Program-made: the position numbers and the translations under genes
Shown: positions 23 to 34,245 of the stretch, one piece after another
Numbering within the stretch: the first letter of the stretch is position 1
How the letters are laid out: each line of letters starts with the position of its first letter
Origin: Anabaena sp. UHCC 0187
Lineage (GTDB): Bacteria; Cyanobacteriota; Cyanobacteriia; Cyanobacteriales; Nostocaceae
DNA: 41,319 nucleotides
NCBI RefSeq assembly: GCF_009712035.1
Contig: NZ_VILB01000035.1
Coordinates: 1-41,319, forward strand
Direction of reading: 5' to 3'
The notes under the pieces: generated by a model
The model's database searches: none
Told to the model about the DNA's origin: nothing
What the model saw: the letters and a program-made list of their open reading frames with translations, nothing else

Positions 23-847
23 TTATTTCCTCAAAGCGACTTCAGGTAAAACCTGATTTAATTTACCACTACGATAACCTTCTAAATCTAAGGTGACATA
101 GATAAATCCCCAAGTTTGAAATGCAGCTACTAGAGTTGGTAAATCTGTCGTCATCACAAAATCTTTAATTTTATCTGGTGATAATTCAATTCTGGCTGTA
201 TCACCTTCGCAACGAACTCGTAAATTTTGCCAACCCAGGTTTCGTAAATAAATTTCTGCTCTTCCTACTCGTTGTAATTTGGCTATGGTAATTTCTTCAC
301 CGTAGGGAAAGCGCGAACTTAAACAGGGTTGAGCAGGTTTATCCCACCAAGGTAAACCGAGTTGTTGGGAAATTTGCCGAACTTCGGCTTTGGTAACACC
401 GATTTCTGCTAAAGGAGATCGCGCACCTCTTTCTTTTGCAGCTTGAATTCCGGGACGATAATCATGTAAATCGTCTGCATTTACACCATCCACCACATAG
501 GGATAACCCAACTCTAAAGCCAAGGGTTTAAGAGTATCGTGTAATTCGCTTTTGCAAAAATAACAACGATTGACTGGGTTAGATGTGTAATTGGGATTGT
601 CCATTTCCTGTGTTTGGACAATTTTATGAGATATTCCGATAGTTGCGGCTTGAATTTTCGCGTCTTCTAATTCTTCTGGTAATAGAGAAGGAGAAACCGC
701 AGTTACAGCCAAAGCGCGATCACCTAACACATCATAAGCAATCTTAGCTACTAGTGTACTATCAACTCCCCCAGAATAGGCTATTAAAGCCTGCTCCATT
801 TCTGTAAATAACTCTTTTAACTGCTCTAGTTTTTCTGTCCAACTCAT
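23..847 (-). CDS. larE: LarE-type ATP-dependent sulfur transferase
   Basis: 274-aa cytosolic protein of the PP-loop (adenine nucleotide alpha-hydrolase) superfamily. The PP-loop SGGVDS lies at residues 25-30, and C95 and C98 (NRCYFCK) with C175 (PCLSSR) give three cysteines. Known of the family: LarE adenylates the carboxylate of a pyridinium dicarboxylate precursor and adds sulfur to it during synthesis of the nickel-pincer nucleotide cofactor of lactate racemase and related enzymes. Some LarE proteins donate sulfur from one sacrificial cysteine, while a three-cysteine class carries an iron-sulfur cluster; the pattern here fits the latter, by inference. No larB, larC or larA is nearby, so the precursor enzymes and user enzyme are elsewhere or the protein has another sulfur-transfer role. 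ATG start; the 183-bp spacer to the next gene holds AT-rich repeats of the kind TAAATCCTGATT. Confidence 0.85.
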   Translation of the reverse strand: MSWTEKLEQLKELFTEMEQALIAYSGGVDSTLVAKIAYDVLGDRALAVTAVSPSLLPEELEDAKIQAATIGISHKIVQTQEMDNPNYTSNPVNRCYFCKSELHDTLKPLALELGYPYVVDGVNADDLHDYRPGIQAAKERGARSPLAEIGVTKAEVRQISQQLGLPWWDKPAQPCLSSRFPYGEEITIAKLQRVGRAEIYLRNLGWQNLRVRCEGDTARIELSPDKIKDFVMTTDLPTLVAAFQTWGFIYVTLDLEGYRSGKLNQVLPEVALRK

Positions 848-16013: not shown

Positions 16014-16675
16014 AGTGATGTCAGTAACCCAACTGGGCTTGCAAGAGTAATCAAGCAAGCCGTACTGACCAGACCACCCTAAGCCTAGTCGAAGGGTAGC
16101 CGTTATTTGAGTCACGACACCCCGGAATGCGAAGCTAGTTCCCTGCTCTGTCATTTGCAATTAAACAGTTTTAAGGTCACTGAAACAGTGTTGCAAGTCT
16201 AACAAGCTCTTATAACAGGTCGTTCGCGCCAGCGTGCCGGAGGCATCTAGCTAACATTACCCCAGAAATGGGAGGCTCTTGGGAGCAAAACATTATGCGT
16301 ACAGAGTTGGAAAATTTGAATCGGTAATTGTCCCGTTGAAAGTACATCACAACAGTACCCCGAATTTCCCAACTCCAAGGCGGTAATGAAAAAATATTCA
16401 AGACGGTTAAAACCGCACGAGCGGTCACTGAGCTTGTCAAAGTGTCGTTTCCCTCTCAGCACTGAAGTGTCTGAGTTTCCTACTTACCGGGTATTCTTAT
16501 GATTTTTGCGAAGCACGAAATTAATCGTGTAGTAAACTTAGAGACTGTTGTATTTAATCCTGAATGGGATTAAATGCGAATCGCTATCCCTCCCCAAGTT
16601 GTCATAGCTTGGGTAGCTTTCGCGGTAGCGTGCCAGAGGCATCAGCCATACTTGGGGTATTTCGCGGCAGGAAAG
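16014..16675. other. Long structured non-coding region
   Basis: 662 bp without a credible gene but with many inverted repeats. Seen: GTCAGTA (16020-16026)/TACTGAC (16063-16069) enclosing GGCTTGC/GCAAGCC; CACTG-AAA-CAGTG (16178-16190); GCTC-TTGG-GAGC (16275-16286); a 15-bp stem 16304-16318 with 16361-16375 (one mismatch, one G-T), flanked by CATTA/TAATG (16291-16295, 16384-16388); ACCGC-ACGA-GCGGT (16412-16425); and CTCAGCACT with AGTGTCTGAG (16455-16475). The wording GCGTGCCGGAGGCAT at about 16233 recurs as GCGTGCCAGAGGCAT at about 16628, a dispersed repeat. It does not match tmRNA, RNase P, SRP or 6S RNA as far as I can tell. It could be a non-coding RNA, a decayed mobile element, or a nest of palindromic repeats. 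Confidence 0.5.
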
Positions 16676-19445: not shown

Positions 19446-20051
19446 ATGATGACGGATCGTGACTATACCTTAATTATTGACAAAAGTGGTAGTATGTCCA
19501 CCCCCGACCAAGTGGGTGGGAGAAGTAGATGGGAAATAGCCCAAGAATCTACCATTGCTTTAGCGAGAAAGTGTGAACAGTTTGATCCTGATGGCATCAC
19601 AGTTTACGTGTTTTCTGGCAAATTTAAACGTTACGATGATGTAACAACTGCCAAAGTTGCCCAAATATTTCAGGAAAATGATCCCGCCGGTACAACTAAC
19701 TTAGCCAGTGTCTTACAAGATGCCCTGAATAATTACTTTCAACGCAAAGCAGCAGGTACAACTAAACCTAATGGAGAAACAATTTTAGTCATTACTGACG
19801 GTGAACCAGATGATCGCAAAGCGGTATTTGAAATTATCATCAGTGCTACCCGACAAATGGAAAAAGATGAAGAATTAGGAATTTCCATGATTCAAGTCGG
19901 TTCAGATGCTCAAGCAACCAAATTTCTCAAAGCCTTAGACGATCAATTACAAAGTGTTGGTGCTAAATTCGATATTTGCGACACCATTACTTTAGATGAT
20001 TTAGAAGACATGAGTTTGGCTGATGTTTTAATGAATGCCATCACTGATTAA
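19446..20051 (+). CDS. VWA-domain protein, copy 1
   Basis: 201 aa, a stand-alone von Willebrand factor A domain. The complete metal-ion-dependent adhesion site is present: DKSGS (D12, S14, S16), T83/T84 in GTTNL and D118 in ITDGEPDD. No signal peptide or membrane helix, so cytosolic. Such VWA proteins bind partners through a Mg-bridged acidic residue and are often found with ATPases, FHA proteins or Ter-type stress genes. An AAGGAAG ribosome-binding site lies just before the ATG pair. It is about 75 percent identical without gaps to the next protein (hand count 150 of 201). First gene of a likely operon of two or three genes. Confidence 0.92.
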   Translation: MMTDRDYTLIIDKSGSMSTPDQVGGRSRWEIAQESTIALARKCEQFDPDGITVYVFSGKFKRYDDVTTAKVAQIFQENDPAGTTNLASVLQDALNNYFQRKAAGTTKPNGETILVITDGEPDDRKAVFEIIISATRQMEKDEELGISMIQVGSDAQATKFLKALDDQLQSVGAKFDICDTITLDDLEDMSLADVLMNAITD

Positions 20052-20086
20052 TTAAGAAAAATTACTAATATCTGGAGAGTTTAGTC

Positions 20087-20692
20087 ATGCTAGAAAACCG
20101 TGATTACACCTTAATTATTGATAAAAGCGGTAGCATGGCTACCCCAGATCAAAAAGGTGGTAGAACTAGATGGGCAACAGCCCAAGAATCTACTTTAGCA
20201 CTAGCAAGTAAATGTGAACAATTTGATCCAGATGGCATTACTATTTATTTGTTTTCTGGAAGATTTAAACGTTATGAAAATGTCACATCAGCCAAAGTCT
20301 CACAAATTTTCATGGAAAATGATCCGTCGGGAACAACAGATTTAGCTGGAGTTTTAAAACACGCTACCGATGATTATCTGCAACGCAAAGCCTCCGGTAC
20401 AACTAAACCCAATGGGGAAACAATTTTAGTAGTTACTGATGGTGAACCAGATGATCGTAAAGCCGTAATGAAGGTAATTATTGAAGCTTCTCGTCGTCTC
20501 GATAGAGATGAAGAATTAGCTATTTCCTTTATTCAAGTCGGTAATGATGCTCAAGCTACCCGCTTCTTGAAAATCTTGGATGATGAACTGCAAAGTGCAG
20601 GGGCTAAATTTGATATTTGCGACACTATCACAATGGATGATATGGAAGATATGAGTTTATCAGAAGTTCTTCTCAATGCCATTAATGACTAG
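20087..20692 (+). CDS. VWA-domain protein, copy 2
   Basis: 201 aa, same length and gapless alignment with copy 1; D12, S14, S16, T83/T84 and D118 are all kept, so both copies should bind metal. The differences cluster at residues 91-96 and 132-140, surface helices near the metal site, which suggests the two bind different partners after a tandem duplication. The spacer to copy 1 is only 35 bp and has CTGGAGAG as ribosome-binding site, so the two are co-transcribed. The stop is followed by a GAAATTA-type repeat and a hairpin at 20737-20797. Confidence 0.92.
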   Translation: MLENRDYTLIIDKSGSMATPDQKGGRTRWATAQESTLALASKCEQFDPDGITIYLFSGRFKRYENVTSAKVSQIFMENDPSGTTDLAGVLKHATDDYLQRKASGTTKPNGETILVVTDGEPDDRKAVMKVIIEASRRLDRDEELAISFIQVGNDAQATRFLKILDDELQSAGAKFDICDTITMDDMEDMSLSEVLLNAIND

Positions 20693-21886: not shown

Positions 21887-22438
21887 ATGAACGTATTAAC
21901 TTTACAGTGGCAAGATACAAATCAAAATATTACTCACAACATTTACGAACAACAGCCCAGTAAGAATCCAGGTACTGTCCGTATTGGAAGAGATCCCTTG
22001 CAATGCGACATTATTCTAACTCATCCAACTGTATCTGGTTTGCACGTTGAAATATTTTTTCACTCACAACAGCAACAATTTTATCTCAGAAACTTACGTG
22101 AATCAAATCCTCCTCAGATAAATGATAAACCATTAATTCGAGGAGAAATGGCTTTAGGAGAAGGTAGCCTAATTTATTTAGGACAACAAAAATTAGAAGT
22201 TACTGCTATTTCTGTTCACAAGATTACCCCAACAATTATTACACCACCACAGTTACAAATACACCCTCGATATCCACAACACTCTCCTACCCCAGTGACA
22301 CAACCAAAACCTATTTATGGTTTGCAATGTTCCAGATGCCATAAAGTTTCTCCAGCCGAAAATTTGAAAATAGGTTGTCCTTGGTGTGGTACATCCTTAG
22401 CAGCAGCAGTTAGTGTTCTATTTGCACCCAGCAATTAA
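21887..22438 (+). CDS. FHA-domain protein with zinc ribbon
   Basis: 183 aa. FHA domain at about 5-108 with the phosphothreonine-binding residues in place: IGRD (G34, R35), S50 and H53 (SGLH), and ND at 79-80. A Pro/Gln/Thr-rich linker (112-143) leads to a small zinc ribbon with C148/C151 and C164/C167 (CSRC, CPWC). Known of FHA domains: they bind phosphothreonine peptides; a zinc ribbon usually adds a protein or nucleic-acid contact. Together with the next gene, 32 bp downstream, it suggests a Ser/Thr-phosphorylation readout module, though no kinase is in the window. Confidence 0.88.
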   Translation: MNVLTLQWQDTNQNITHNIYEQQPSKNPGTVRIGRDPLQCDIILTHPTVSGLHVEIFFHSQQQQFYLRNLRESNPPQINDKPLIRGEMALGEGSLIYLGQQKLEVTAISVHKITPTIITPPQLQIHPRYPQHSPTPVTQPKPIYGLQCSRCHKVSPAENLKIGCPWCGTSLAAAVSVLFAPSN

Positions 22439-22470
22439 ACAATTGATAATTGACAATTAACAACGAACAA

Positions 22471-24429
22471 ATGACTAACTTACAAATTCAATTAAGTTGG
22501 GAAGATCCAGCAACAGGAGAAAGAAGAGAACCAAAGTTAAATATACCTATTGCTTTTGGTCGAGAATTTGCGCGTTTACCTACAGAAATTCAAGGACAGC
22601 GTGTTTCGAGAATGCTGTTAAATAGTCACGAAGTTTCTCGTTATCATGCACTAATTGAGTGGGAAGAAAACCATTTAGTTGTAATTGATCAAAATAGTGC
22701 GAATGGAGTTTATGTTAATGGTCAAAAACAAACACGCTGTCAGTTAGCTAATGGCGATACTGTGCAAATGGGGCCATATTTAATTATTGTCCAGTTTGGT
22801 ATTAATACTCTTATTTCTCCTCCTCGTAATCCTTCAACAATTCAATTTAATCCCCATACTAATCTTCCAGATTCTAGTGTATCACCTTTACCTGTAGTTA
22901 CACCTGTAGGTAGTAATTTTCCACCCCCATTTTTTCAAGCCGAAAAAGTAGAAATTCAGGCAATTCATGCTACAGGTTTACCAGTTAATGAATGTGATTA
23001 TCTGGCAATTGGTGCAGGTTTGGGTAGTTTTATTTGGGTTAATTTACTCAGAATTAGTGGTGTCAAAGCTAATAAAATTATGGCGGTGGGATTAGAAGCG
23101 CAACCCTATGCCCGTTATCAACGCCTTTGTCTTAATTCCCAAATTCCTTTACAGGAAAGATTGCGTTCTAATTCTGATTCTTGTCCTGATAATATTTGGG
23201 GTTGGCCGAGTTATGCTTTGCGGGAATCTTGGCATGATTTAATGCAAGGTAATTTTAAATCGACGTTTAAACATTTATGGCAAGTTTTTAGTGAACCAAC
23301 TTTTGCCCAAACCTATACTCCCAGGGCTGGGAATGTTTTTAATTCTCTAGATAGGGAAGCAAAACGCATTGGTTGGGAGCAAATTTATCATTATGGCAGA
23401 GTTAGAGGAATCCGCAAAACGGAAGATGGTAGATATTGTATTGCTTATGCTTTAGGACAAGGAGAATATGCTTTTATAGTTAGTCGTTATTTACATTTAG
23501 CTACGGGATACCCAGCCATTCAGTTTCTTCCAGATTTGCAAACTTATCGAGAAAAATATCAAGATTTTCAAGCTGTAGTGAATGCCTATGAAGATCACAA
23601 TCATGTTTATGAAAAATTAGAACGCCAAGGTGGTACGGTGTTGATTAGAGGACGGGGAATTGTGGCTTCACGGGTTGTCCAGCGAATTTATGAAGCGAGA
23701 AAACAAAATCAGCAGATTACAGTTTTACATTTAATGCGATCGCCTAAACCCCAAGGTAATAAATTTCAAAAAGCACAACGGACTGTTAAAAATCATTATG
23801 AATTTCAACCCTTTAACTGGCCAAAGGCCTGTTGGGGTGGTGAACTACGGGAAATGCTAGAAAAAGCTACTCCGGAAGAACGTAAAAGCTTTTTAGCCGA
23901 CTGGGGAGGAACAACTACTGCTGACCGTTTAGATTGGCAAAATATCACCGAACAAGGTTTAAAGGAAGGTTGGTATCAAATCACCTTTGGTCAGGTATTA
24001 AGAGTAGAAAAAGATGGACAAAATCGCACTATTACCGACATTCAATCGGAAGGTTTAGGAGAAATAAAATTAACCGCAGACTTTATTATTGATGCTACCG
24101 GATTAGATGCCAAAGTAGAAGCTAGTCCTTTATTAGAAGATTTAGTTAAACACTACAATTTACCTCTAAATTATTTAGGAAGATTAATAGTAGCGAATAA
24201 TTTTGAATTAGTAGAAATGCGAAATACTAAAGGACAAATGTATGCAGCCGGAGCAATTACCCTGGGCGGACCCTATGCCGCTGTTGATAGTTTTTTGGGT
24301 TTACAATATGCGGCATTGGTCGCAGTTGATGGATTATACATTGCCCATGCACCAGGAGTTAAAAGATTAAATGGTGTTAGTTCTTTGGGACAATGGTTAA
24401 AGTGGGTTTTTAACCAGTCACCATCATGA
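22471..24429 (+). CDS. FHA domain fused to FAD/NAD(P)-binding oxidoreductase
   Basis: 652 aa from ATG 22471; a TTG seven codons upstream is possible but unlikely. An N-terminal FHA domain (about 5-110: FGRE, SRYHAL, NSANGVYVNG) is joined by a Pro/Ser linker to a two-Rossmann flavoprotein: DYLAIGAGLGS (181-186) as dinucleotide site, a second nucleotide-binding turn GGTVLIRGRGIVASR near 400, DFIIDATGLDA near 550 and GAITLGGPYAAVDSFLGLQY near the end. This resembles the FMO / lysine N-hydroxylase-like oxidoreductase group; substrate unknown. FHA linked to a redox enzyme is uncommon and suggests control by protein phosphorylation. Probably co-transcribed with the FHA/zinc-ribbon gene. Confidence 0.85.
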   Translation: MTNLQIQLSWEDPATGERREPKLNIPIAFGREFARLPTEIQGQRVSRMLLNSHEVSRYHALIEWEENHLVVIDQNSANGVYVNGQKQTRCQLANGDTVQMGPYLIIVQFGINTLISPPRNPSTIQFNPHTNLPDSSVSPLPVVTPVGSNFPPPFFQAEKVEIQAIHATGLPVNECDYLAIGAGLGSFIWVNLLRISGVKANKIMAVGLEAQPYARYQRLCLNSQIPLQERLRSNSDSCPDNIWGWPSYALRESWHDLMQGNFKSTFKHLWQVFSEPTFAQTYTPRAGNVFNSLDREAKRIGWEQIYHYGRVRGIRKTEDGRYCIAYALGQGEYAFIVSRYLHLATGYPAIQFLPDLQTYREKYQDFQAVVNAYEDHNHVYEKLERQGGTVLIRGRGIVASRVVQRIYEARKQNQQITVLHLMRSPKPQGNKFQKAQRTVKNHYEFQPFNWPKACWGGELREMLEKATPEERKSFLADWGGTTTADRLDWQNITEQGLKEGWYQITFGQVLRVEKDGQNRTITDIQSEGLGEIKLTADFIIDATGLDAKVEASPLLEDLVKHYNLPLNYLGRLIVANNFELVEMRNTKGQMYAAGAITLGGPYAAVDSFLGLQYAALVAVDGLYIAHAPGVKRLNGVSSLGQWLKWVFNQSPS

Positions 24430-26886: not shown

Positions 26887-29445
26887 ATGGAACCAGATAA
26901 GCTGGCGCGATTGAAAGAGTACGGTGAATTTATCCTCCGCAAAATTGACTCTGTACCCCAACGCCCTTCCCAAGAGGAAGATTGGGTTCCCACTAGCCTT
27001 GATGATTGTTTGCTACGGCTGCGAGAGGCGGCGGAGAAAACTGTAGAATTGGCCAACTCACCGGTAAAAATTGGCGTAATGGGGGAATTTAGCAGCGGTA
27101 AAAGTTTGCTGCTAGGAAGTCTCATTGGTTACGCAGACGCTTTACCAGTGAGTGAAAATCCGACAACTGGTAATGTTACAGCGATTCACATTAAACCCCA
27201 GGATGGTTTTGCAACTACCCAAGTAGATAATTACACGGTGGAATATTTATCCCATGAAGGGGTAAACGAGTGCTTACACTTCATGCTCAAAGAAGCAAAC
27301 CGTCGCGCTACGTCTGCCGGGGTGACACCTTTACAGGTAGCTAAAATTAAAACTGGTAAAGATATCAGTATTTGGTGTGAGGAAGTTTGGAAAAGCTCAA
27401 ATAATTTAGAATTGCGTTATTTGGTGCGGGAGTTAGTGTCATTTTTGCGGGCTTATCAGGCTTATGGTGAGGCTTTATGCGGTCGCTTTTACCAAATTGA
27501 TGCTATCACCTCCCATGAAGGTTTACAACTGGCAGAAATGCCCATGGCGATTCAATCTCTCAAATTTGAGGATTTACCAGCAGCGCATATTCGCTTACCT
27601 AATGCTCCTCAAAAGTTAGGAACGCAATTATTACAAAACAGTTTTCCCTTAATTCGTCGCGTTGATATTGAAGTGAAAATATCACGAGAAATTTGGGATG
27701 TTACAGGTGCAGAAGAATTTGTCCTGTTAGATTTTCCGGGTTTAGGTGCAGCTAATTCTGGGACTAGAGATACATTTTTATCATTGCGAGAATTGGCACA
27801 GGTACAGACAATTTTAGTCTTACTTAATGGTAAATCGCCAGGGAGCGATCGCGCCAATAAAATTTTCACAATGATGCAGCAACAACGCCCAGGACAAGAC
27901 CTGAAGGATTTAATTCTTGTCGGTGTGGGACGTTTTGATCAACTACCTTTAGAAAGTGAAGGTGGGGAAAGGGAACTAGATTTATTAATTGCTAATCAAT
28001 CTAATTCTCAACCGTTACAAACCAATACAGTTTTCCAAAAATTGAAAGTTCTCAAAACCATTATTGATGGGGCTGAGGCTTTTACTACTCAAAAAGACAG
28101 AATTGTTTTATTATCACCACTGTTAGGATTAGCTGAATTTGCCAAACGTTCTAGTCAAGTAAAAGCAGGTTCAGAGGAATTTCTCGCTAATTTAGATTAT
28201 CCCGATTATCTGGAAAGACCGAAAAAGTTACAACAGAAATGGGGTGATTTAAGTGAGGCTTTATTAGCAGTAGATGGGAGGAATCAATTAGGTAAACAAT
28301 TAGGTTATTTTGCTCAAGATGGTGGGATTAGTAAATTAAGAGAATTAATTCAAACTCATGTTACTAATCATGGCTTAAAGCAATTATATGAAGATACCCG
28401 GCGGGCTGCTGATGGTATCCGTCAACAACAAGAATATCTCAAAGAAATTATTGCCGAAATTCACGAACAAGGCATACCCACACTTGATACTCCGGCTTTA
28501 ATGGAATTGAGAACAGCCATAGAAAGTTTAGATAAAATCTACAGAAACTTCCAAAAAGATTTAGGTAAAGAACAACTGAAAGATCGGAGAGGAATTGTAG
28601 TTAGTGATGTTATTAAAGATGAGCTAACTTTGAGAATTTTGAATTGGAGTCAGTGGACATTACTATTTAATAAAGTCCAAAATGGCACAATTACCTTAGC
28701 TGAATTTAAAGGTGCAGCCGGGAAATTATTTGATAGAGGAAATCGCGTAAATACTTCTCTACCAACTAAAAGTGATGACTTTTATCCAGCCTTTGAAAAA
28801 ACAGTTAAAGAACTGGAGAACTTTGCCAGCGATCGCATTCGTCAAGCCGTGATAGACTTATTAAGCTCCTTGGCACATCAAATCACCTTAGAACGGGAAA
28901 AACTGCAAGCCATTCTTCTCCCAGAAATGGAACAAGAAATTGAAGAGAAATTTGGACTTGAAGAAGCCGATTTATTTTATAAACTTTTATTAGGATGTGA
29001 TCCTCGTCAATGGAAAGAAGCCATTATTGCCGAAATCAATAACCATGATCAAACTATCAAACCAGAAAATATTTTTCCCCTAGCCAGACAAGATGAAAAA
29101 CACAGTGTAGGACAAATTTTTGATTGGTCTCCAGAAAGGAATCAAAACCCATCTAGAAGCACGAATCATCAACTTTTCGTTTTACGACTACGAGATGAAA
29201 TTACTGCTAGTGCTAGTCTTCACCTTGTGCAATATGTCAGCGAAAGCAATCAGCACGTAAATATAGAAATCAATGGGATTTTAGATCAAATTATTCCCAG
29301 TTTGCAAAACCTTTCCAAAAAAGAAGCACTACTCAGATATATTGCTGCGAGAGATTCACAAACTGAATTAGCTATTCCCGCTTGGTTGGAAATTCTAGCA
29401 GATATTGCCGCAATTAATGAAGCTGAATTATTTACCTGTATTTAA
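26887..29445 (+). CDS. Dynamin-like large GTPase (SrfC-like position)
   Basis: 852 aa. G1 P-loop GEFSSGKS at 66-73; G2 probably in NPTTGNVT (T93/T94); G3 DFPGLG starting at D282; the G4 position reads GRFDQL with D351, where dynamins normally have T/NKxD, so guanine recognition may be altered. The G domain is interrupted by a helical insert of about 130 residues between G2 and G3. The rest (about 450-852) is mostly helical, with coiled-coil-prone stretches, as expected for a dynamin stalk; no strong transmembrane segment. The bacterial dynamin superfamily remodels membranes or acts in stress and defence. The neighbour is a giant Hsp70-like ATPase, 124 bp downstream, as in srfB/srfC loci. Confidence 0.85.
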   Translation: MEPDKLARLKEYGEFILRKIDSVPQRPSQEEDWVPTSLDDCLLRLREAAEKTVELANSPVKIGVMGEFSSGKSLLLGSLIGYADALPVSENPTTGNVTAIHIKPQDGFATTQVDNYTVEYLSHEGVNECLHFMLKEANRRATSAGVTPLQVAKIKTGKDISIWCEEVWKSSNNLELRYLVRELVSFLRAYQAYGEALCGRFYQIDAITSHEGLQLAEMPMAIQSLKFEDLPAAHIRLPNAPQKLGTQLLQNSFPLIRRVDIEVKISREIWDVTGAEEFVLLDFPGLGAANSGTRDTFLSLRELAQVQTILVLLNGKSPGSDRANKIFTMMQQQRPGQDLKDLILVGVGRFDQLPLESEGGERELDLLIANQSNSQPLQTNTVFQKLKVLKTIIDGAEAFTTQKDRIVLLSPLLGLAEFAKRSSQVKAGSEEFLANLDYPDYLERPKKLQQKWGDLSEALLAVDGRNQLGKQLGYFAQDGGISKLRELIQTHVTNHGLKQLYEDTRRAADGIRQQQEYLKEIIAEIHEQGIPTLDTPALMELRTAIESLDKIYRNFQKDLGKEQLKDRRGIVVSDVIKDELTLRILNWSQWTLLFNKVQNGTITLAEFKGAAGKLFDRGNRVNTSLPTKSDDFYPAFEKTVKELENFASDRIRQAVIDLLSSLAHQITLEREKLQAILLPEMEQEIEEKFGLEEADLFYKLLLGCDPRQWKEAIIAEINNHDQTIKPENIFPLARQDEKHSVGQIFDWSPERNQNPSRSTNHQLFVLRLRDEITASASLHLVQYVSESNQHVNIEINGILDQIIPSLQNLSKKEALLRYIAARDSQTELAIPAWLEILADIAAINEAELFTCI

Positions 29446-29470
29446 TTGGTGAATATTCAGTCATCAAACA

Positions 29471-29495
29471 ATTTTGGATTTTGGATTTTGGATTG
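29471..29495. repeat. Tandem TTTGGAT heptads
   Basis: Three copies of TTTGGAT between the GTPase and Hsp70-like genes; part of the 124-bp spacer. Confidence 0.8.
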
Positions 29496-29569
29496 ACTTC
29501 ATAGATAAAATTAGGGGCTTTTACTATCAATGAATTATTTGTCATTAAATTAGATAAGGAACATCAAAA

Positions 29570-32500
29570 ATGCCTGTGGAAATTCGGCTTCTACCTAGCT
29601 TTAAATTAGGTGTAAAAGAAAATGCACAGTTGCATCTACCCTCCATCCAAATTATCCCTATTAACAGCAACATTCCGCACATTTCTCGGATTAACTGCAT
29701 AGTTAGAGGCACACCAAACGTATTAGCAGCACAAATTCAAAGAACCTATAGACAATTTCACTCAGCCACACCCAAACAAATTACTAATATTTGTCAATTA
29801 GGACAAGATTCCTGTCAATTAGATTCACCTTTAATCACCATAGTTGACTGTACTTTAAAGGTAATTGTGGAATATTTTGATTCCGACGCTGGGGGAAAAC
29901 CAAATTTGTCTATATCTAATCATGTATGTGCTGAATGTGATCTTTGGTTTATACCCAATTTACAAGAATCATCAAATCCACCTACAGAAAATTATCCGGC
30001 CATGAACAATTCGCAATTTGATCACTACCTGCATAATTTAAGTCAACAACTCAGTGAAAAACTCAACGAAAAACAAAGAAAAAGATTTCCTGGTTGGTTA
30101 GCTTTAGATTTTGGTACTTCTAACTCCACCGTGACACTTTTTGACCCCATAGAAGTCCCCATTGCCGAAGTTTTACCCAGAGAACAAGAACTGAGATTAA
30201 GAGAACGCATGGCTGAATGGTTAAATTCTTCTTCTGATTTAGCCTTACCAGATGTGAGTGGCGGCGAATGGGACAAATTTCTGGCTGATATTAGCAAAAA
30301 CTTAGAAATAGAATCACATGAATTAAGTGAAATTTTTGAAAGTGATAACAAAGAATTATTTTTAGAAGCAATTCGGCAAATTGAATTATGTTTAGGAACA
30401 AGTGATAGATTTCGGCGGGCTGTTAGTAAAAAACTTTATGCGATATATCATGAAGTTTTCCGTGTTCCCACATTAGAATCACAAAATTTAATTCCCGTAG
30501 TTTTAGATATTGATAGACGCAGTACAGAAATTCCCAGTGAAATGGAAGTATCGCAATTAATTCCCTTAAAACTACGCATGGGAAGAGATGCTAGAGATAA
30601 TAGAAAAAAAGCCATCGCCCAAGGAACAACTGTTTCAGTTAAAGAAATTATTAGCAGATTTCACCATTCACCCAAACGCTATTTTGGACAAGATCGATCT
30701 TTCCCCATTATCTTAGAAGAAGATGAAGAAAATATTCAAGTTAATCGCCTCATTCAAGCAGCTTGGGCGCAATTAATTGAATTAACAGAAGATTATCGGC
30801 AACGGGCTAGACGGAGATTTTCAGAAGGCGATTTTTTAACAGCAGTTGTTACCTATCCCACCGTTGCCCCTCCCATAGTTCGCAAAGAAATCAGGCAATT
30901 AGTAGAGGAATTAGGCATTGATGATGTGCAAACAGCTTATGACGAAGCTGTTTCTGTGGCTATCTTTTTCCTGTGGCGAGAATTTGGCGGAAATCTCAAT
31001 ATTGGCATTGAATCTTTTAAAACTCGCTGTCGTCAAAATGGCAATAAATGGTCACAAAATGTCCTAGTTTTAGATATTGGTGGGGGAACAACCGACTTAG
31101 CTTTAATTGAACTTACCCTGGAAGATAAAACGCCCTTCTTTGCAGATAATGAAGATCGAGGTTTAGGAGGACGTTACTATAAACTTACCCCTAAATTATT
31201 AGGTTCTTCTGGACATTTACAATTAGGTGGTGAATTAATTACTTTACGAATTTTCCGCCTATTAAAAGTGGCTATTTCTGATTTTCTTCTCACCGCAGTT
31301 ACTACAGGTGACATCGAAAGCGACAAATTAGAAGACTTAATCAACTCCGAATTAAACGAACGTTTTTTAGAAGACGGAAAATTTAAAACTGGTAGTTTAT
31401 TGAAATGTATAGATAAAGAAAATCCCGAAGGTGACGTTGCCTTTAAAGATGCCCTAGATACAGCCGAAAAAGTCTTACCAACTCGTTGGCAACAAGCAAC
31501 CCAACGCCTGCAAACCTTTTACACATTGTGGGATCATGCCGAAGCTGCTAAACTCAAATTAGGACAAAAACTACCCACAGATACTTCTTTATTAACCTTC
31601 ACTTTAAATGAACAACAAATTGGCGAACTTCTTGCCCAAAGTGCCGTTAAATTTCAAGTTAGAAGTTCTGAATCTATTTCTCTAACTTTAGATAACCAGC
31701 AATTTGATCGGGCTGCCATGTCTTCCATTAAAGAAGCAATTGGTATTGCTAAAGGTTTAATGGAAAGCCGTCTCAGTTCGGAAACTAATCAAAAAGTAGA
31801 TTGGTTGATTCTCTCTGGAAAAACTTGTAGTCTTGATCTGGTTCAACAACAAATTTACGAAGAATTTAGTCAATCACCTTATTTTGTTTGGAATCCTGAA
31901 CGAATTACCTTTGTTTTAGAATTTACAAAAATTGCCACTTCCGCAGGTGCTTGTTATGCCGAAAAACTGCGGCGCTTTCGATTTGATCCAGAAGAATCTA
32001 AAAATCTGTTACGCAAGGGTGCAAATCAATTAGAAATTGATGTCAAAAACCTGTTTTATTATCTTCCTTGCAACTTCAAACGCAAAACCCAAAGTAATGA
32101 ACCATTAGCCATTTTTAGTGCGGGACAAGAACTATATCAACTTGCACCTTGGGACACTGTGGCTAAAGTGCGGACACCTTGGCAGGGGATACAATTAACT
32201 AATATTATCCATCGTCAAGATTATGAAAACGGAACTTTTCGCCTCTGGGGTAGTTTCGATGGTAAAGTATTGATGGATAAATTAGGCATGGAAGAACAGG
32301 AATTTCTCAAAAAAATTAAAGTGCAATTTGAGATTGACCAAGCTTTACAATTTAGCGTTTTGCTATGTCGAGGTAATCCCCATTATTTAATAGATGTGGC
32401 TGGCATTGATATTAATTCAGTCATATCTAAAACTGCTGAAAATACCTTATTTAGTGATGGCAATTTGAAATGGAATATCGCTATTGAAAATCATCAACAT

Positions 32501-32983
32501 AACTTAAATCATGGTGATATTGCTGTCAATGTTTTAGAATCAGCCACAGTTGATCAACCTCATGCTTATCATTTAGTATTTGCAGTTGATAATAATCATA
32601 GTAAAATTATGGAAACATTTCATTATTTACAAGACGGTGTAAAGCAACCAGGAACAGGATTAATTAGTCAACCCTTGCCACCATTTCCCCAAAGTGGTCA
32701 ACATACCTTCTATATTTATCAAACTGATAGTGAGACAAATACTAAAAAATGGCTACGGATTGGTACACTCAGCAGACCGGATATTATCACAGATTATCCT
32801 TGTCAATATCATGTAACTCTTGATAATACAGGCATATTAAGAATGCACGCCGGTGCAGTTCCTTATTGGACATCTAATAATCAAGAATGTCTAGAACAAG
32901 AAGGATGTGTTTATCGGGCAGAATTGGAATTACAACCTAATGAAGTTGATAAAGAACGTGATCCATTTTGCGGTATTCATTAG
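29570..32983 (+). CDS. Giant Hsp70/actin-fold ATPase (SrfB-like)
   Basis: 1137 aa. Residues 1-165 form a beta-rich domain of unknown type. The Hsp70/actin ATPase core follows: phosphate-1 LALDFGTSNSTV (D180), phosphate-2 VLDIGGGTTDLALIEL (D502) and an adenosine-site-like LILSGKTCSLDLV (about 747-759). The distance D180-D502 is over 300 residues against about 190 in DnaK, so a long insert (about 200-330, charged, helical) sits in lobe I. Residues from about 830 look beta-rich, a possible substrate-binding part. No DnaK C-terminal signature. Size, divergent Hsp70 fold and a dynamin-like neighbour recall SrfB of proteobacteria. ATG start preceded by AAGGAACATC. Confidence 0.85.
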   Translation: MPVEIRLLPSFKLGVKENAQLHLPSIQIIPINSNIPHISRINCIVRGTPNVLAAQIQRTYRQFHSATPKQITNICQLGQDSCQLDSPLITIVDCTLKVIVEYFDSDAGGKPNLSISNHVCAECDLWFIPNLQESSNPPTENYPAMNNSQFDHYLHNLSQQLSEKLNEKQRKRFPGWLALDFGTSNSTVTLFDPIEVPIAEVLPREQELRLRERMAEWLNSSSDLALPDVSGGEWDKFLADISKNLEIESHELSEIFESDNKELFLEAIRQIELCLGTSDRFRRAVSKKLYAIYHEVFRVPTLESQNLIPVVLDIDRRSTEIPSEMEVSQLIPLKLRMGRDARDNRKKAIAQGTTVSVKEIISRFHHSPKRYFGQDRSFPIILEEDEENIQVNRLIQAAWAQLIELTEDYRQRARRRFSEGDFLTAVVTYPTVAPPIVRKEIRQLVEELGIDDVQTAYDEAVSVAIFFLWREFGGNLNIGIESFKTRCRQNGNKWSQNVLVLDIGGGTTDLALIELTLEDKTPFFADNEDRGLGGRYYKLTPKLLGSSGHLQLGGELITLRIFRLLKVAISDFLLTAVTTGDIESDKLEDLINSELNERFLEDGKFKTGSLLKCIDKENPEGDVAFKDALDTAEKVLPTRWQQATQRLQTFYTLWDHAEAAKLKLGQKLPTDTSLLTFTLNEQQIGELLAQSAVKFQVRSSESISLTLDNQQFDRAAMSSIKEAIGIAKGLMESRLSSETNQKVDWLILSGKTCSLDLVQQQIYEEFSQSPYFVWNPERITFVLEFTKIATSAGACYAEKLRRFRFDPEESKNLLRKGANQLEIDVKNLFYYLPCNFKRKTQSNEPLAIFSAGQELYQLAPWDTVAKVRTPWQGIQLTNIIHRQDYENGTFRLWGSFDGKVLMDKLGMEEQEFLKKIKVQFEIDQALQFSVLLCRGNPHYLIDVAGIDINSVISKTAENTLFSDGNLKWNIAIENHQHNLNHGDIAVNVLESATVDQPHAYHLVFAVDNNHSKIMETFHYLQDGVKQPGTGLISQPLPPFPQSGQHTFYIYQTDSETNTKKWLRIGTLSRPDIITDYPCQYHVTLDNTGILRMHAGAVPYWTSNNQECLEQEGCVYRAELELQPNEVDKERDPFCGIH

Positions 32984-32993
32984 CTTTAATTCC

Positions 32994-33122
32994 GTAGGTT
33001 GGGTTGACGTATGTTACCCAACATTATCAATTCTCGCTTTTTATTGGGTTGCACTATCACTTAAACCAATATTATCAATTCTCGCCCTTTGTTGGGTTGC
33101 GCTGTCGCTTAACCCAACCTAC
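32994..33122. repeat. GTAGGTTGGGTT palindromic element, copy 1
   Basis: Terminal 12-bp inverted repeats GTAGGTTGGGTT (32994-33005) and AACCCAACCTAC (33111-33122). Inside is a tandem duplication with a 48-bp period (the word ATTATCAATTCTCGC at 33023 and 33071). The same ends bound an element at 40388-40507. MITE-like in form; no coding capacity of its own. Confidence 0.88.
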
Positions 33123-33150
33123 TTTTTGCTATTTTCATCCTGACAAAATC

Positions 33151-34245
33151 ATGCAGAATTTACATAAACTACTAAATACAGAAAACTCAGAATTAGCCAA
33201 AATATTACGGTTTAATTTATATGGATTAGCCGCAACTTTAACAAAAGCAAATCAAGAATATCCGCTTGATACCGGATTTCAGACATCAGAAGAAATCCTC
33301 CAAGAACTTAATTATTTATTACAACCTACACCAGTTATAGAGGAACTACCTCAGAAAAAAAATGAATTAAAATTATTGAAATTACAAGAAGCTTTTAATT
33401 GTGATTCAGAATTAAATTTTTATCTAGGTAATTCTCCTATCCAAAGCCAAACCGATGCAGAAATATGGAATAAAATTCATCAAAAACTATTGCAAGTCCC
33501 TGAAGATTTAGCGACATCTTGGCGACAAATAGCTTTAAAATTAGCACAGGAATTAGGTGCAGTTGTAGATAATAGAAATCTTGAGGAATTGCCTTTTGTG
33601 CGTGATGAAATTATTTATCCGGGGTTAAGTGGTACAGTTAAAGCCAAAGGACTATGTTTATCTCAAACAGCCTTGGTAAATTCAGGAATTGCCCAAACTC
33701 ATCTTTCTGAAAATTTACATTTAATCGCTGGATTTTTACTTTTATATATTAAATTTATTGAGATAGATACAGAATTACATCATGCTTTGAAAAGTGTTTT
33801 TAGCTTTGATGTGGTTTCTTTACACTCTAAATCAGAACAACGCCATCAATATATTGACGCATTAAGTGATCGCTTTCACCGCATTCAAAAATCAGAAGAA
33901 AATACTGATACAGTTTTAAACTTATGTGCTTGGATTGACATGGATGAAGCCATTCATTCTTTAGTATTTATCCCCCCGGCTGAACGTTATTCCTGGTGGG
34001 GAAAATTACAAAAAGAATCCCGTCGTCTGCTTAGAAAAGCCGCTGACAAAGCTATTAAAGCAGGTAATGAAGTGCGACTCAAACAGTTATCAGGACTGTA
34101 TGCTGATGTTTGTGAATTTTCTAAAGATGACTTGCAATTAGACTGTGGTGGTAATCCAGGTGAAGTATTAACTTGTTTGCGAGTCTATGCCCGAATTAAT
34201 CAACAACAGTATCCAGGAAGGGTGATATTTAGGACTCTAAGGTAA
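33151..34245 (+). CDS. Unrecognised protein, third gene of GTPase/Hsp70 cluster
   Basis: 364 aa from ATG 33151 (MQNLHKLLNT). The frame stays open upstream to 33004, but those 49 codons are made of the palindromic element, so the later ATG is chosen. I recognise no domain. Mostly helical and charged, with one hydrophobic helix (HLIAGFLLLYIKFIEI, about 194-210) and a basic helix-rich end (WWGKLQKESRRLLRKAADKA). Following the Hsp70-like gene in the same direction and of a size like SrfA, it may be the third subunit of the system. The spacer of 167 bp with the inserted element may weaken co-transcription. Confidence 0.75.
   Translation: MQNLHKLLNTENSELAKILRFNLYGLAATLTKANQEYPLDTGFQTSEEILQELNYLLQPTPVIEELPQKKNELKLLKLQEAFNCDSELNFYLGNSPIQSQTDAEIWNKIHQKLLQVPEDLATSWRQIALKLAQELGAVVDNRNLEELPFVRDEIIYPGLSGTVKAKGLCLSQTALVNSGIAQTHLSENLHLIAGFLLLYIKFIEIDTELHHALKSVFSFDVVSLHSKSEQRHQYIDALSDRFHRIQKSEENTDTVLNLCAWIDMDEAIHSLVFIPPAERYSWWGKLQKESRRLLRKAADKAIKAGNEVRLKQLSGLYADVCEFSKDDLQLDCGGNPGEVLTCLRVYARINQQQYPGRVIFRTLR

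Follow-up and report, generated by a model that had tools for sequence, protein, structure and literature searches.

The window analysed here, a stretch of 41,319 nucleotides from Anabaena sp. UHCC 0187 (RefSeq assembly GCF_009712035.1, contig NZ_VILB01000035.1; contig C28 of a 5.1-Mb genome in 57 contigs), carries three consecutive plus-strand genes, GTP, HSP and P3, which form an operon-like unit with fixed order and strand. We find two enzyme classes with intact catalytic motifs, a GTPase of predicted dynamin architecture and a divergent Hsp70-type ATPase, linked to a gene for a third protein, the three being mostly lost together. Our essential contention, which may equally well prove right or wrong, is that the trio is one machine, in which HSP would drive GTP polymers on a membrane to assemble or, more probably, to come apart, P3 serving as an adaptor. 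The three open reading frames (ORFs) lie where a first-pass annotation, made from the sequence alone, had placed them (Table 1), and its cyanobacterial host is confirmed by Dolichospermum, Anabaena and Nostoc among the named relatives. The two outcomes that it had named as fatal to its reading, proteins of unrelated families and genes that are not neighbours elsewhere, were seen neither in our profile searches nor in the neighbourhood survey. Profile searches covered Cyanobacteria; surveyed genomes are labelled G and examined loci L, each with a number, 'family' denotes that of the window (Nostocaceae), and the order and phylum samples are likewise cyanobacterial.

Gene order was examined at 117 loci. 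All three genes are complete in 106, and every one of these (106/106) keeps the order GTP-HSP-P3 on one strand, with median gaps of 153 and 138 bases, as expected from the earlier claim that the third gene belongs to the set; seven pairs among the 106 are the same sequence twice, leaving 99 distinct loci. The most divergent triads, L173 (in G328) and L174 (in G374), come from outside the family and share 35% (GTP), 43-44% (HSP) and 39-41% (P3) identity with the window, with an HSP-P3 gap of 8-13 bases. Incomplete loci are cut by contig edges (L112, L135, and L071, where GTP lies past the edge and P3 is matched in part), have a split gene (GTP in L032 and L086, both from one genome; HSP near its start in L035), are fragmented (L175 and L176, the latter without GTP), show P3 as two stretches in one frame (L168), or have no P3 next to HSP (L034, L107). 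Promoter-like sites (31, against 26.2 with standard deviation 6.3 in shuffled sequence) and terminator-like sites (5 against 6.1) are not in excess in the window, and co-transcription therefore draws no support from the sequence.

The three genes are mostly lost jointly. A single-sequence HSP query found no match in 6 of the 192 family genomes, and in G155, G164, G165, G179 and G213 HSP, P3 and full-length GTP were all not found, GTP giving nothing beyond short matches near the P-loop (E 1e-5 or weaker). G213 is 88% complete at 3.2 Mb, a small genome that might indicate a symbiont. Several disturbed loci also speak for a single machine: in G051 (L034/L185) P3 lies more than 1 Mb from the GTP-HSP pair but is intact; G284 carries HSP at two distinct loci, with identities of 81% and 54%, the second copy sitting in a full triad (L181); and in G159 (L228, counted as an HSP match) GTP and HSP are both fragmented and P3 was not recognised in the 15 kb examined. 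In G195 (L184), of the same genus as G051, the three genes are still together.

The assignment of GTP to the dynamins, proposed in the first-pass annotation, is upheld by a Dynamin_N score of 35.6 bits (cut-off 27) and by the predicted model, whose closest folds are SynDLP, BDLP and mitofusin, in alignments that range from residue 1 to about 846 with a high whole-chain root-mean-square deviation; we take GTP to be a full-length dynamin-like GTPase, with dynamin architecture predicted across nearly the whole chain. The motifs first quoted for GTP (GEFSSGKS, DFPGLG) and for HSP (DFGTSNS, DIGGGTTD) are all present, and the catalytic residues are invariant across homologs (K72, T94, D282 and P284 of GTP in 45 of 45 rows; D180, K369, E459, D502 and T507 of HSP in 42 of 42), hence they are not there by chance. 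The G4 aspartate of GTP, D351, is kept in 37 of the 45 rows and is Asn in 8. The GTP homologs of L173 and L174 score under the Dynamin_N cut-off, and hhalign found no relation between GTP and DnaK. Against three relatives, the ratio of nonsynonymous to synonymous substitution (dN/dS) is 0.08-0.11 for GTP, 0.11 for HSP and 0.17-0.24 for P3.

HSP had been read as an outsize Hsp70-like ATPase, a description that our searches sharpen. It aligns to the DnaK profile by hhalign (96.4%, E 1.1e-9), and its predicted model aligns with Hsp70 folds as far as residue 1123, taking in a nucleotide-binding domain (NBD) and a domain resembling the beta part of the substrate-binding domain (SBD-beta). On profile and model, HSP is best described as a divergent Hsp70-superfamily protein and not a DnaK, with an NBD, a linker-like segment, an SBD-beta-like domain and an extra N-terminal beta domain. 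It shares the NBD and the catalytic motifs with DnaK, BiP and Hsp110, and may share the linker and SBD-beta, but has about 600 residues beyond the aligned DnaK stretch (insertions and the N-terminal beta domain) and no long helices after residue 830, the modelled chain ending soon after the beta domain. Either the N-terminal or the C-terminal part alone gave only short, non-significant motif matches to DnaK, and for that reason the correspondence of K369 and E459 to DnaK K70 and E171, and that of LEIDV to the DnaK interdomain linker, stay motif readings; I823 and V825 of this segment are present in 42 of the 42 rows and D824 in 38. The Pfam HSP70 family (PF00012) scores the window HSP at 14.1 bits, under its cut-off of 20.6, and matches 22 of the 42 homologs at E <= 0.1 (best 2.3e-6); some members may pass. 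The N-terminal beta domain is present in 31 of 42 alignment rows and missing from many Nostoc homologs; in L173 and L174 it is there in spite of the late start chosen in the alignment. Remnants of it turned up in the GTP-HSP gaps of 2 of 46 short-form loci, both being long forms with a late start.

The third protein, which the first-pass annotation could not place, stays unplaced. Its length of 364 amino acids (aa) from ATG 33151 agrees with where most relatives begin, the longest ORF running from TTG 33004 (413 aa). Scans of P3 and its homologs against Pfam, NCBIfam, PADLOC and PDB sequences gave no credible match, and hhalign found no relation to GTP, HSP or DnaK; PDB sequence searches with the window proteins returned nothing significant. 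Resemblances to the Deltex C-terminal domain (1 of 14 homologs) and to Secretin_N_2 (4 of 14, best E 0.044) were rejected as chance. The intergenic stretch between HSP and P3 (32984-33150) holds two similar repeats (TATCAATTCTCGC...TTGGGTTGC), both inside what looks like an open frame ahead of the P3 ATG.

Hydropathy predicts no likely transmembrane helix in GTP, HSP or P3, which argues for a soluble or peripheral complex. The same property would suit another view, in which HSP folds clients in general and only happens to lie beside a dynamin gene, the three genes being neighbours and not parts of a machine; as these genomes hold several DnaK genes of their own, an extra Hsp70 would not be unusual. 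We nevertheless think this improbable, given that retention and loss mostly affect all three genes jointly and that the HPD motif occurs in none of the three window proteins; by that sign P3 is not a J-protein.

Table 1. Features of the window, with protein residues where a feature is part of a gene product.
Feature	Residues	Positions in window	Strand	Basis
GTP, 852-aa dynamin-like GTPase		26887-29445	+	ORF, Dynamin_N match, predicted fold
GTP G-motifs	G1 GEFSSGKS 66-73; switch I T94; G3 DFPG 282-285 (DFPGLG 282-287); G4-like GRFD 348-351			
GTP stalk, long helices	481-528, 633-665, 761-811			
HSP, whole gene, 1137-aa Hsp70-superfamily ATPase		29570-32983	+	ORF, profiles, predicted model
HSP N-terminal beta domain	1-137 (strands 3-127)	29570-29980	+	predicted model; no Pfam match
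HSP NBD	172-807	30083-31990	+	motifs, profile, fold
HSP NBD motifs	phosphate-1 DFGTSNS 180-186; K369; E459; phosphate-2 DIGGGTTD 502-509; AEAAKLKLG 657-665; adenosine motif LSGKT 748-752			
HSP linker-like segment LEIDV	821-825	32030-32044	+	motif reading only
HSP C-terminal SBD-beta-like domain	about 836-1123	32075-32938	+	predicted model
P3, 364-aa third protein, conserved blocks PAERYSWWGKLQ and KDDLQLDCGG		33151-34245	+	conserved beside HSP
FHA-domain gene		21887-22438		
FHA-domain gene with weak oxidoreductase match		22450-24429		

The trio is centred on one family. In a first phylum sample HSP was found in 18 of 146 genomes, all 18 of them in the family, and GTP in the same 18 with two further marginal matches; a 386-genome phylum sample gave 42 strong HSP matches, again all in the family, and five others only at E 1e-3 to 1e-2. 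Within the family 186 of 192 genomes match HSP, some copies not being intact. Elsewhere in the order the HSP profile found 12 of 225 genomes (30/243 in all), G413 and G459 in pieces only. A scan of named genomes yielded 168 relatives, the best 80 of which belong to Nostocales-type genera, together with some unclassified names; these 80 are mostly known heterocyst formers, one of them, Plectonema, belonging to a genus traditionally described as without heterocysts. The 80 named loci reduce to 67 once 11 with too short a downstream sequence and 2 without P3 are set aside, all of which extend 5 kb or more downstream; 49 of these 67 retain one or more of the three genes that follow the trio in the window. 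One neighbour is a cytochrome b561; the sequences of the other two suggest, presumptively, TrpD and a DNA adenine methylase. Since the neighbours are mostly retained, inheritance has been mostly vertical at a fixed place. HSP has no match on plasmid or phage records, and neither GTP nor P3 on plasmids, nor P3 in IMG/VR contigs; a mobile or viral origin of the trio was accordingly rejected.

These distributions bear on whether the trio is an anti-phage or other conflict system, in which GTP would guard the membrane and HSP and P3 would sense or trigger. Bacterial dynamins can delay phage lysis, as described for DynA (PMC9950537), and GTP has a weak PADLOC match to LeoA (18.8 bits); this match covers the P-loop region alone (residues 49-102 only), and membership of LeoA was rejected. 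The near-universal presence in the family, the mostly fixed position, the absence of HSP from plasmid and phage records and the lack of any specific PADLOC model all count against a conflict system, which we hold to be very improbable.

A function in heterocysts or nitrogen fixation, such as the reshaping of membranes at heterocyst poles or septa, would fit the concentration of the trio in a family of heterocyst formers, and HetR is above cut-off in 11 of the 12 carriers outside the family, against 120 of 225 genomes overall (Fisher p = 0.006, the genomes not being independent); G328 has no HetR match. The survey of nifD weakens a strict link. All 192 family genomes match nifD at E <= 0.001 and 151 do so above cut-off; weak matches were disregarded, because Synechococcus elongatus, a control without known nitrogenase, also matches. 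Cuspidothrix CHARLIE-1 (G166, locus L061) keeps the triad with merely a residual nifD match (3e-14), and this loss of nif without loss of the triad argues against nitrogen fixation as such; conversely, G164, G165, G179 and G213 are above the nifD cut-off and no triad was found in them. G159 is above the nifD cut-off and has its triad in fragments. With 12 genomes of other families also carrying trio genes, we consider a dedicated role in heterocysts or nitrogen fixation distinctly unlikely. The association with HetR, and the fact that the trio is nearly fixed in a single family of filamentous cyanobacteria, do suggest a function in multicellular filaments.

The first-pass annotation had likened the trio to the proteobacterial SrfABC system, a comparison that stands in part. 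Its ATPase half finds consistent similarity: at E <= 0.1 the SrfB family (PF07520) matches all 42 HSP homologs, against 22 for HSP70 and 12 for MreB_Mbl. The individual SrfB scores obtained are nonetheless all under the cut-off of 27.1 bits, whether in the window (23.1), in L174 and L173 (25.8 and 22.6) or in the HSP genes of genome scans (21.3-25.9, above cut-off in 0 of 21 genomes), and the best E-values of the two families among the 42 homologs, 3.5e-6 for SrfB and 2.3e-6 for HSP70, are equally good. The GTPase and third-gene halves found no counterpart. Virul_Fac (SrfC, PF10139) matched neither the window GTP at E <= 1, nor any of 13 homologs at E <= 0.1, nor anything in the window's own genome, this last being a weak test alone, as all 14 control genomes were silent too; P3 has no credible match in NCBIfam or Pfam that would tie it to SrfA, the presence of a SrfA model in these libraries being unchecked. 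By profile score, then, the trio would not be placed in the SrfB or SrfC families.

What the profiles suggest is that HSP and SrfB plausibly form one branch of the Hsp70 superfamily. The SrfB match spans HSP residues 450-520, of which 450-490 precede the phosphate-2 motif and lie outside the DnaK profile alignment, and in the divergent L174 HSP, for which no Hsp70 match appeared, it extends over 119 positions of the profile. These observations, the large Hsp70/actin-fold ATPase common to both, the rank of SrfB as the commonest Pfam match of HSP and the three-gene set with a large GTPase to which the first-pass annotation pointed would favour the trio as a distant SrfABC member of the same function, with HSP as SrfB, GTP as SrfC and P3 as SrfA. 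By the sizes given in the first-pass annotation, both would also have a third gene that encodes about 400 aa. The sub-threshold scores, the silence of Virul_Fac and the unplaced P3 make such membership doubtful, although it deserves to be taken seriously. The two also differ in range, the trio having been found in one cyanobacterial order and srfABC being reported from alpha-, beta- and gammaproteobacteria (PMC6950479).

Pairs of dynamin and DnaK genes are already known from cyanobacteria. A classification that divides 121 dynamin-like proteins of cyanobacteria among six clades includes a 'chaperone' clade with DnaK-domain genes downstream, for which a role in protein sorting during membrane remodelling was suggested (PMC5827413, 2018). 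With the same succession of a dynamin-like gene and a DnaK-domain gene, this is very probably the pair described here; the section on that clade names no third gene, SrfB affinity, domain anatomy or distribution (PMC5827413). What we regard as new is that a third gene is linked to the pair, together with the anatomy of the Hsp70, its affinity to SrfB and the distribution. Among the published titles and abstracts found, which cover subscription journals poorly, none deals with the three-gene set or with SrfB in cyanobacteria. The closest solved folds of GTP, SynDLP (Slr0869, of the KGK clade) and NosDLP/BDLP, are all cyanobacterial dynamin-like proteins, and GTP is about 11-17% identical to them in the fold alignments. 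SynDLP and cyanobacterial membrane dynamics are treated elsewhere (PMC10104851, PMC9950537); the gene partners of SynDLP and BDLP differ from those of GTP, being given as a KGK protein or a tandem dynamin-like protein (PMC5827413).

In proposing how the machine might work, we picture the three products as a single cytoplasmic, membrane-associated assembly. GTP would oligomerise on the membrane through its stalk and spend GTP on bending, tethering, fusing or severing it, the candidate target membranes being the cytoplasmic, thylakoid or septal membrane. HSP would be a dedicated Hsp70-type ATPase, in which ATP binding and hydrolysis in the NBD are relayed through the linker to the beta substrate domain; this domain may grip GTP or a GTP-P3 complex, and so load or dismantle GTP polymers much as Hsc70 acts on clathrin coats. 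P3, we would guess, does the work of a J-protein and joins HSP to the membrane or to its client. In eukaryotic endocytosis Hsc70 and auxilin uncoat vesicles alongside dynamin, and an Hsp70 beside a dynamin on membranes is a works-like analogy only, the window trio having no HPD motif. That the proteins interact physically, in which direction the cycle runs, what P3 does and which membrane is the target are our inferences.

Several observations weigh against this machine. Vertical descent at a fixed place also yields joint inheritance, and the correlations of pairwise distances, which otherwise speak for the machine (GTP-HSP 0.984, GTP-P3 0.937, HSP-P3 0.929), were computed without a control gene. 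L107 carries HSP with no adjoining P3, and G271 has an intact GTP with neither HSP nor P3 detected, though the contig of this 89% complete draft extends 4.4 kb further. The SBD-beta assignment of HSP comes from a predicted model, and the candidate basic residues in a low-confidence loop of GTP (606-628) are kept only in part.

Elsewhere in the window, a HEARO RNA (Rfam RF02033, 107.6 bits, 16020-16260) lies within a stretch, 16020-16497, that is cleanly missing in L020, a close relative in which the two flanks join at position 2397; the stretch is an insertion with no ORF of its own of at least 100 aa. The segment 21371-24480, with the two FHA-domain genes, is also missing in L020, which has about 215 bases instead and is otherwise collinear there. 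Tandem 201-aa vWA/TerF-like genes at 19446-20692, about 75% alike, are both present in L020 too.

To our knowledge, the roles of bacterial dynamins in the cell are for the most part not established, and a dynamin that comes in a fixed set with an Hsp70 of its own and one further protein would offer a testable handle on how bacterial dynamin polymers are controlled, in Nostoc and Anabaena strains that are genetically tractable. If the link to SrfB is true, it would also give a mechanistic frame to SrfABC, whose action is obscure. The furthest extension of our contention, unlikely as we judge it, is that the trio represents a bacterial dynamin equipped with an Hsp70 and an adaptor of its own. 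The three would make up a self-contained machine for coat assembly and uncoating driven by ATP and GTP, old in filamentous cyanobacteria, almost fixed in the family that includes the heterocyst formers and distantly homologous to SrfABC. Were this so, SrfABC, the 'virulence factor', would not be a toxin as such, and would represent in proteobacteria one branch of a machine of general use in membrane remodelling.

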